Assembly (NCBI GenBank): GCA_003670475.1
Contig: QWRJ01000002.1
Location: 1 to 34,239 of the forward strand
DNA: 34,239 nt
Direction: 5' to 3'
Source of the DNA: Candidatus Limnocylindrus primus
Lineage (GTDB): Bacteria; Chloroflexota; Limnocylindria; Limnocylindrales; Limnocylindraceae
Within the stretch, counting starts at the first letter, position 1, and every line of letters starts with the position of its first letter. Of the stretch, positions 22,692-26,251 are shown in pieces. The position numbers and the translations under genes are program-made. Under the pieces are notes generated by a model. It was not told where the DNA came from. It worked only from the letters and a program-made list of their open reading frames with translations, and did no database searches.

Positions 22692-23789
22692 ATGGCTGAA
22701 CTGTTCGGGCTCGTGGGCGGGGTTGTAGGGCCACTCCTGGTCTTGATTCTTCTTGTTGTGCCGTTGATCGTGGTGCACGAGCTCGGCCACCTGCTCGTCG
22801 CTCGCTGGCGGGGAATCGCCGTTGAAGAGTTCGGCATCGGCTTCCCGCCACGGATCGCCGTGCTGCATCGTGGCTCACGCACCCTCCTCACACTGAACGC
22901 CCTCCCATTCGGCGGCTTTGTTCGCATGGCTGGAGCCACGGAGGGGAGCAGTGAGCTAGATGGGTGGGAGCGCGCATCGCTCCTCTCAAAGACGATGGTC
23001 ATGCTCGCGGGTGTTCTCGTCAATCTTCTTCTCGCCTTTGCGCTGATGCTCCTCCTCGCCGGCCCACTGGCGGAGCGCGGTGAGCTAACGCTTGACGCGG
23101 TGCAGCCTGGCTCGCCTGCTGCAGCGGCGGGGATCGTTGCAAGTGACAGGATCGCCGCGCTGAATGGCGCTCCCTTTGACCGATTTGAGCCGCCACTCGC
23201 CAACATTCGTGCACTCGCTGGCGAACAGGTCAGCCTGACGATCGTCTCCTCTTCAAACGTAACGCGAGAGATCTCCGTGCGCCTGCGCACGTTGGAGGAG
23301 GCGGTAGACCAGGGGGTACTCGGCATTCAGATCAGTGGGCTCGCCCCAGCTGGCCCGCTGACACGACCGGCTGATCAAGTGATCACGGTTGCTGCAGCGC
23401 GCACAGCGGAGGCGGGCGGCGCAATTATTGGTGGTTTAGCGGAACTGGTGAGTGCACCGTTCCGCTCGGACAGCGAAGCGCCAACGCTCGCCGGCCCCGT
23501 TGGTATTGCCGTTGGAGTTGCTGGCGCGGCTGAACGGCTCGGGTTGAGCGGCCTCCTGCAGATCGCCGCACTCCTCTCCGCCAACCTTGCGATCTTGAAT
23601 CTGCTCCCTATCCCGCCGCTCGACGGCGGGAGAGTTGCCGTGCTCTTGCTACGACGTGTGCTCGGTGGCGAACGAGGTCGTCGTGCCGAGCAGGCGCTTG
23701 TTACTGGCGGGGCACTCGCGATGCTGCTGCTCTTTGTCTGGATCACGCTTGGCGACCTTGCTGGCATCTTTACTGGAGTGGCGCAGTGA
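22692..23789 (+). CDS. rseP: RseP-family site-2 zinc metalloprotease (M50)
   Basis: [29 protein letters not shown]...[14 protein letters not shown] domain; [13 protein letters not shown]. Confidence 0.94.
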
Positions 23790-25054
23790 GCCGCGAGCTT
23801 CCTGTGGTGCCACGACCGGCCGCGGATCGACCTGATCTACTGCGCCCAACGCGACGCAGCACTCCATCGGTGAGCATCGGCGGAGTGCTTGTTGGTGCAG
23901 CGCACCCGATCGTCGTGCAGTCAATGACGAATACCGACACCGCCGACGCGGTTGGTACGGCGGCTCAGGTTGCACACCTCGCGCGTGGAGGGAGTCAGAT
24001 CGTCCGCATTACGGTGAATCACGAAGCGGCGGCGGCGGCGGTACCCGAGATTGTGCAACGCGTTGCCGATGAAGGTTTGCAGGTGCCAATCGTTGGCGAT
24101 TTCCACTACAACGGGCATAAGCTCCTCGCCGCCTTCCCCGAGGCAGCTGGAGCACTTGCAAAGTACCGCATCAATCCGGGGAATGTTGGGACGAAGCGGC
24201 GCGATGAGAACTTCCAGACCATCGTCAAGATTGCGAACGACAACGCGAAACCTGTACGCATTGGCGTGAACTGGGGCTCACTTGATCAGGATCTATTGAC
24301 CCTCCTGATGGAAGAGAATGCGAAGGCGCCGCAGCCAGCGAGCGCGCGCGCCGTGACGATGGAGGCGATTGTGCGCAGCGCGCTGCAGTCAGCGGAGCTC
24401 GCCGAATCGACTGGGATGCCGCACGATCACATCCTCCTCTCCGCCAAGACCTCCAATGTCCGCGACCTTATCGACGTCTATCGCGAGCTTGGATCGCGCT
24501 GTGACTACCCGTTGCACCTCGGCCTTACAGAGGCGGGGATGGGGATGAAGGGGATCGTGGCCACAACTGCGGCGCTTGCCAATCTGCTGAACGAGGGGAT
24601 CGGCGACACGATCCGCGTCTCGCGCACCCCAGAGCCAGGTGCCGACCGCGCACTTGAGGTGGAGGTTGCACAGCAGATCCTCCAGTCACTCGGCCTTCGC
24701 GCCTTTGCGCCGCAGGTCACCTCGTGCCCAGGGTGCGGCCGCACCACCAGCGTCTTCTTCCAGGAGATGGCGCAAGAGATCCAGAACTACCTGAAGGCGC
24801 AGATGCCGAGCTGGCGTGAGCGCCATCCGGGCGTTGAGAGCATGGAGGTGGCGGTGATGGGCTGCGTGGTGAATGGCCCTGGCGAGTCGAAGCACGCCAA
24901 CCTTGGCATCAGCCTCCCTGGCACCTTTGAGGAGCCGGTCGCCCCAGTCTTCCAGGACGGCGCCCTGCTCACCACCCTGCGTGGGGAGCGCATCGTGGCT
25001 GAGTTCACGGAGATCCTCGAGCGCTACGTGCAGGGGCACTACCCGAGCCGATAG
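23786..25054 (+). CDS. ispG: 4-hydroxy-3-methylbut-2-en-1-yl diphosphate synthase
   Basis: [52 protein letters not shown]...[10 protein letters not shown]...[10 protein letters not shown]...SCPGCGRT...[22 protein letters not shown]. Confidence 0.97.
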
Positions 25055-25068
25055 CCCTCTGGCGGGCG

Positions 25069-25077
25069 TGCTATGAT
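25069..25077 (+). promoter_or_regulatory. Extended -10 promoter element (TGCTATGAT) upstream of nusA
   Basis: TG-n-TATGAT just after the ispG stop codon; no clear -35 element. Confidence 0.55.
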
Positions 25078-25103
25078 CTTGGGGATAACGGCCGCCGAAC
25101 GAT

Positions 25104-25132
25104 AGACGTGGGTGACCCCCGCGTCTTTTTTT
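25104..25132 (+). terminator. Intrinsic terminator/attenuator in the nusA leader
   Basis: AGACGTGGG-TGACC-CCCGCGTCT followed by TTTTTT: 9-bp stem (one T-G wobble), 5-nt loop, uninterrupted T-tract; lies between the extended -10 and the nusA start. Confidence 0.75.
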
Positions 25133-25165
25133 ATCGGGGCTGCCAAGTGTGAAGGGAGGCCTGAA

Positions 25166-26251
25166 ATGAGCAAGGAGCTTGTTGGCGCCCTCGTACAGTT
25201 GGGGGCAGAGCGGGGGATCGACCGCGAGAGCGTGCTTCAGGCGGCCGAAGAGGCGTACGCCGTTGCCCTCAACCGCCGCCACAGTTCAGCTGATATCCAC
25301 GTCCGACTCGACCCTGAGACGGGATCGATGCGGGTCTTCCGCGCGCGTCGCGTCGTTGAAGAGGTGCTCGTACCTGGTGCCGAATGGACCCTTGCAGAGG
25401 CGCAGGTAGAGCACCCTGAAACGGCGGTTGGCGCCCTGATTGAGACCGAAGAGATGAACGGCGACATGGGGCGCATCGTGGCGGCGCAGGCGCGCCAGAC
25501 GCTCCAGGCGCGACTTGTGCAGATCCAGCGCGACCAGGTGATGCGCTCCTTCGCTGAGCGCGAAGGGGAGATCCTCACCGGCGTAGTGATGCGTGTGGAC
25601 CGTCGCAACCTCGTGCTTGATGTGGGGCGTGCTGAGGCATACCTCCCGTCAACCGAGCTCTCACCACTCGACACCTTCCGCATTGGGGAGAACGTCAAGG
25701 CGCTCCTTCTTGAGGTTCGCACTACCGTGCGTGGCCCAGAGATCCTCCTGACGCGCTCACATAAGAACTTCGTCAAGAAGCTCTTTGAGCTTGAGGTGCC
25801 AGAGATTGGCACCGGTCTCGTTGAGATCAGCTCGATTGCACGTGAGCCAGGGCACCGCAGCAAGGTGATCGTCACTGCGCATCAGGTTGGGCTTGATCCC
25901 GTTGGCACCGTTGTTGGGCAGCGCGGCGCGCGCGTCCAGGCGGTGGTTGAGGAGCTTGGCGGCGAAAAGGTAGACATCATCGCCTTCGCAGATGATCCGG
26001 CTGAGATGATCGGCCGCGCACTCTCGCCAGCGCCAGTGATCTCCGTAGTAGTGGATGAAGTGGCGAAGGCTGCCGTTGTCACCGTCCCTGAGCATGCCCT
26101 CTCCTTGGCGATCGGCCGTGAGGGGCAGAATGCACGACTTGCCGCTCGCCTCACCGGCTATCGCATTGATATTGCAAGCGACGGATCTGGCACTCCACCT
26201 GCCGCAGAACCGATTGACGGTGAAGCGGTTGCAGTAGAGGGCGAGGCATAG
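25166..26251 (+). CDS. nusA: Transcription termination/antitermination factor NusA
   Basis: ATG 25166 after GGGAGG; MSKELVGALVQLGAERGIDRESVLQAAEEAYAVALNRR...GEILTGVVMRVDRRNLVLDVGRAEAYLPSTEL...LTRSHKNFVKKLFELEVPEI...VGQRGARVQAVVEELGGEKVDIIAF...GREGQNARLAARLTGYRIDI. Confidence 0.96.
   Translation: MSKELVGALVQLGAERGIDRESVLQAAEEAYAVALNRRHSSADIHVRLDPETGSMRVFRARRVVEEVLVPGAEWTLAEAQVEHPETAVGALIETEEMNGDMGRIVAAQARQTLQARLVQIQRDQVMRSFAEREGEILTGVVMRVDRRNLVLDVGRAEAYLPSTELSPLDTFRIGENVKALLLEVRTTVRGPEILLTRSHKNFVKKLFELEVPEIGTGLVEISSIAREPGHRSKVIVTAHQVGLDPVGTVVGQRGARVQAVVEELGGEKVDIIAFADDPAEMIGRALSPAPVISVVVDEVAKAAVVTVPEHALSLAIGREGQNARLAARLTGYRIDIASDGSGTPPAAEPIDGEAVAVEGEA

Follow-up and report, generated by a model that had tools for sequence, protein, structure and literature searches.

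A candidate attenuator in the nusA leader of a freshwater Chloroflexota and its relatives

In the small-genome freshwater Chloroflexota lineage studied here, nusA is preceded by an extended -10 promoter and, downstream of it, an intrinsic terminator, and sequence comparison indicates that this promoter-terminator-nusA unit is kept almost unchanged over the phylum. Conservation of this kind implies that the nusA-leader element is not a product of chance and is under strong selection. Its reading as an attenuator is well supported by the comparisons, and it is probable that NusA-stimulated termination at this site provides negative autoregulation of the nusA operon. Homologous systems make NusA the likely effector; we infer the start site, actual termination and the part played by NusA from sequence. 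The window, by which we mean the whole stretch of 34,239 nucleotides that was analyzed, comes from Candidatus Limnocylindrus primus, whose nearest named relatives are uncultured Chloroflexi metagenome-assembled genomes, several of them lake-derived according to their isolate names.

How might such an element work? RNA polymerase would start at the extended -10 promoter and make a leader of ∼46–49 nt, and some of these transcripts would end 34 nt before nusA, at the hairpin and its T-tract. Those that continue would form the nusA-ylxR-infB-rbfA-nrnA-truB-ribF mRNA. When NusA is abundant, more termination at its own leader would lower expression of the operon; when NusA is scarce, this repression would be relieved. 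Read-through from ispG would be stopped at the same terminator.

The features of the locus are given in Table 1. When the sequence was re-checked, the -10, hairpin, T-run, Shine-Dalgarno sequence and ATG of a preliminary description were all present, and the positions that it gave proved correct. The hairpin arms, AGACGTGGG and CCCGCGTCT (25104–25126), enclose the loop, and the first T of the T-tract (25126–25132) pairs with A25104. The encoded NusA is a short form, with S1-KH-KH domains and without C-terminal repeats. (In one relative, at locus L064 on G167:C23, a single in-frame TGA lies within the match to the NusA N terminus.) Among the terminator-like sites in the scanned 22–34 kb stretch, the leader hairpin is the strongest, and it forms both the minimum free energy and the centroid element in fold predictions of the leader, and no competing antiterminator structure appeared in the predicted folds of the window leader. 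The isolated 52-nt fold of the hairpin is moderately unusual (z = -1.83), which is weak evidence alone. A sigma-70 consensus scan of the window did not pick up the nusA promoter because the window copy has no -35 hexamer. It is comparison across genomes that decides for a real element.

Table 1. Positions of the elements of the ispG-nusA region in the window
Feature	Position	Strand	Evidence and remarks
ispG	23786..25054	+	Gene 5′ of nusA; TIGR00612 match
Extended -10 of nusA, TGCTATGAT	25069..25077	+	TGSTATRRT in 17/17 genus leaders; predicted start ∼25084
Order-specific 5′ leader segment including GGCCGCC box	25087..25103	+	Mean majority fraction 0.96 in genus
Predicted intrinsic terminator: 9-bp stem, apical GTGGG/CCCGC, TGACC loop, T7 tract	25104..25132	+	Sequence and comparison
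ATCGGGG immediately 3′ of T-tract	25133..25139	+	0.99 conserved in genus; may pair with 25089–25098 as the 3′ side of an outer stem
Shine-Dalgarno GGGAGG of nusA	25153..25158	+	Sequence; ∼7 nt 5′ of ATG at 25166
nusA, 361 aa	25166..26251	+	TIGR01953, 349.9 bits

Within the genus, we compared 17 genomes that have nusA. A block of the form AACGGCCGCCG.ACGA.AGACGTGGGTGACCCCC.CGTC-T6/7-ATCGGGG is kept with few changes in every one of them, with majority fractions of 0.96–0.99 in the block and 0.58–0.60 in the adjoining stretches. The average difference is 7.5% over the 42-nt block, as against 53% at 4-fold sites of nusA. While the flanks drift on both the ispG side and the nusA side, promoter, spacing and hairpin are fixed: the 9-nt spacer from the -10 to the conserved leader is the same in 17/17 leaders, and a purine occupies the predicted start in every genus member. 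Comparison beyond the genus found hairpin and T-tract conserved at class and phylum levels also; the loss of conservation that the preliminary description had named as refuting it was thus not seen.

Conservation of the whole leader from about +4 in the genus could also reflect a functional small RNA, with the short terminated transcript acting in trans. Similarities to small RNAs in Rfam were found, but these are weak and far below gathering scores; no family reached its gathering score, and the relaxed threshold gave chance-level small RNA matches only. As it is only the hairpin and promoter that are conserved beyond the order, and these in cis to nusA, we regard a trans-acting RNA as extremely improbable.

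Across the phylum, nusA upstream regions from 156 Chloroflexota genomes were scanned for a [T/C]GGG...CCC[A/G] hairpin with a T-tract no more than 260 nt from nusA. Such a hairpin and T-tract precede nusA in 145 regions, as against 0/1756 control windows taken at these loci. Among the 11 exceptions, several show longer-loop variants or adjoin rimP; by eye, the motif was not found before nusA or rimP in families f9, f22 and f44. In 133/145 leaders, a good -10 is located 10–85 nt 5′ of the hairpin GGG, compared with 20/801 control windows, and the predicted start is a median of 20 nt from the hairpin. Matches to the -35 at four or more of six positions are found in 31% of the leader set and 9% of controls.

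Could the hairpin be no more than a 3′ terminator for the ispG operon, with nusA transcribed by read-through or from a downstream promoter? ispG stops only 15 nt 5′ of the -10, and there is no other terminator in the window sequence between the end of ispG and the nusA promoter. However, the promoter is conserved on the upstream side of the terminator, and a plausible -10 between terminator and nusA exists in only 2/145 leaders. Furthermore, the promoter-hairpin unit is preceded by a divergent upstream gene in at least eight relatives, where the neighbor encodes UvrC (L124, L140), GAPDH (L078), a CofD/YvcK-type protein (L068), a ComM-type Mg-chelatase (L089, L163), MarC (L125) or UbiD (L073). 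A hairpin in this position cannot end the neighbor's transcript and is part of the nusA leader, and retention of the unit beside divergent genes rules against a mere ispG terminator, which we consider very unlikely. The candidate attenuator of the preliminary description is thereby upheld. So is its suggestion that the terminator could stop both ispG read-through and new transcripts: with no other terminator between ispG and the promoter, the window hairpin can serve both jobs.

The stem itself also bears the marks of selection. Over 50 diverse leaders, 93% of stem cells are paired and both sides have changed at 6/10 pairs; none of 500 shuffles gave covariation as high, and sliding the stem partner cut pairing to 46%–67%. 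All 119 unique arm pairs have GGG/CCC, an observation that carries no independent weight since the scan demanded it. The pairs next to it are nearly fixed, mostly as U-A and then as G-C, and the lower pairs vary among A-U, C-G and G-C. These fixed letters exceed what a terminator needs and suggest sequence-specific recognition, beyond hairpin strength alone, as does the retention of a GTGGG stem from Firmicutes to Chloroflexota.

A covariance model built from the Chloroflexota nusA leaders found one site in the window's genome, the nusA-leader hairpin, which it also matched weakly when read on the opposite strand. Over 101 phylum genomes, it matched in 67, mostly at nusA leaders; in nine genomes where the nusA position was outside our earlier list, NusA is encoded downstream of the model match. 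Five matches lie away from nusA, as determined by comparing positions by hand between the nusA-locus and model-match tables. Four are weak and lie in near-identical copies of one repeated region in family f12, and the fifth (G163:C603, E 5.9e-5) belongs to a contaminated genome. A pattern search of the window's own genome, allowing 2 mismatches, found other copies only at chance level (20+18, compared with 16+14 for the control). We also note four near-identical loci (L209–L212), two of them in G160 and the others in G172 and G220, each with a pair of tandem terminators and two small ORFs; they resemble a repeated element of mobile or proviral kind.

By architecture, the nusA-leader element is a rimP-leader type of attenuator as described in 2010, and finding it phylum-wide and without rimP extends that description modestly. 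Of the predicted attenuators, the rimP-leader was described as the most ubiquitous (Naville and Gautheret, 2010, PMC2965389); its terminator stem has the form GGGc...gCCC, an antiterminator is lacking and NusA was named the best candidate for its regulator. Both it and the window element consist of a short terminator hairpin with an apical GGG...CCC and a T-tract, without a visible antiterminator, just 5′ of the first gene of a nusA/infB operon. In the window, as in rimP-leaders, the T-stretch directly follows the stem, the motif is operon-specific and the distance to the first gene (34 nt) falls within the 4–130 nt of that class. Unlike the rimP-leader, the window element sits before nusA and has an extra order-specific GGCCGC box. 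The loop is mostly TGACC, and so the c...g closing pair of the published motif, formed in several relatives, is not formed in the window copy.

In B. subtilis, where attenuation has been demonstrated experimentally, NusA autoregulates through NusA-stimulated termination in the leader (Mondal et al., 2016, as described in PMC12288461). The promoter of that ylxS(rimP)-nusA leader is 5′ of the leader terminator, as in the window, where the likeness is one of architecture and the predicted leader is shorter than the 180 nt reported for B. subtilis (PMC2965389). The S. agalactiae rimP-nusA-infB operon has a similar leader terminator, but there rimP is the first gene; termination occurs 31 nt past the start, short and long transcripts from the same start site were seen in the 5′ UTR by RNA sequencing and NusA feedback was proposed (PMC4448216). 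Negative feedback by NusA on its own operon is also reported for E. coli metY-nusA-infB (Bylund et al., 2011, as cited in PMC4448216), whose operon start differs from that of the window and whose leader is more complex. Several Gammaproteobacteria have a complex leader with tandem terminators (PMC2965389).

If the element is an attenuator, is NusA what tunes it? Terminators that depend on NusA or NusG tend to have a suboptimal hairpin or an interrupted distal U-tract, although this is not a strict requirement. An interrupted T-tract, TTTTCTTGTTG, is found in many Chloroflexota relatives. The genus of the window has an unbroken T-tract (T6–T7) and strong pairs at the stem end, and the window terminator, with its uninterrupted T7, may be effective without NusA. 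NusA dependence is therefore less certain than attenuation in this genus. Termination could instead be fixed, or tuned by NusG, a cold-shock or helicase antiterminator or the state of transcription and translation, and another factor could bind at the GGCCGC box specific to the order and at the possible outer stem. However, in distant phyla the sequence-specific GTGGG stem goes together with the nusA/rimP operon, and there NusA has been tested or proposed as the effector; we consider an attenuator that does not respond to NusA to be unlikely, although worth keeping in mind.

The distribution of rimP bears on where attenuation by NusA would be placed. RimP (PF02576) is absent in 151/151 searched genomes of the window's class, and so the window element lies directly before nusA. 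(The window does contain rbfA and infB, although RimP was found in none of these genomes.) RimP was found in 17/151 phylum genomes searched, in families f9, f19, f22 and f44. In f19 (L182, L183), a promoter-like TATACT and a GC hairpin with T-tract are located directly before rimP; this hairpin is of the GGGCC(GCG)GGCCC type, unlike the GTGGG stem found elsewhere. In Phascolarctobacterium (Negativicutes), a weak model match, GAGTGGG...CCCGCTC (E 0.25–0.46), lies ∼25 nt before rimP. It seems, then, that the element accompanies whatever gene comes first in the operon.

In the window's order, the leader carries additional conserved sequence. A GGCCGCY box, conserved in family f2, is found 5′ of the hairpin, and the letters after the T-tract are ATCGGGG or GAGCGGC. 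In fold predictions, read-through transcripts can form an outer stem between the box and the sequence past the T-tract. This pairing is stronger than in shuffles in families f1 and f2 (49% of f2 at p ≤ 0.05) and is at chance level in the rest of the phylum (4% at p ≤ 0.05). Neither column covariation of the outer stem at order level nor a partner-swap test was significant, and we view an outer stem around the terminator as suggestive. Since the pairing needs RNA made past the T-tract, an effect on the termination decision itself seems unlikely. It is conceivable, if rather doubtful, that the order has gained a second module in which the box and the post-T-tract sequence serve as an outer stem or as a binding site for a factor. 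If so, how much read-through occurs, or how stable the mRNA is, would be set by this module and would follow some signal other than NusA.

As an attenuator of the rimP-leader type, the element extends the range of a predicted bacterial attenuator, the most widespread one, to a phylum in which most of the sampled genomes have no rimP. Its rimP-less placement separates the element from RimP and leaves NusA as the leading candidate effector.
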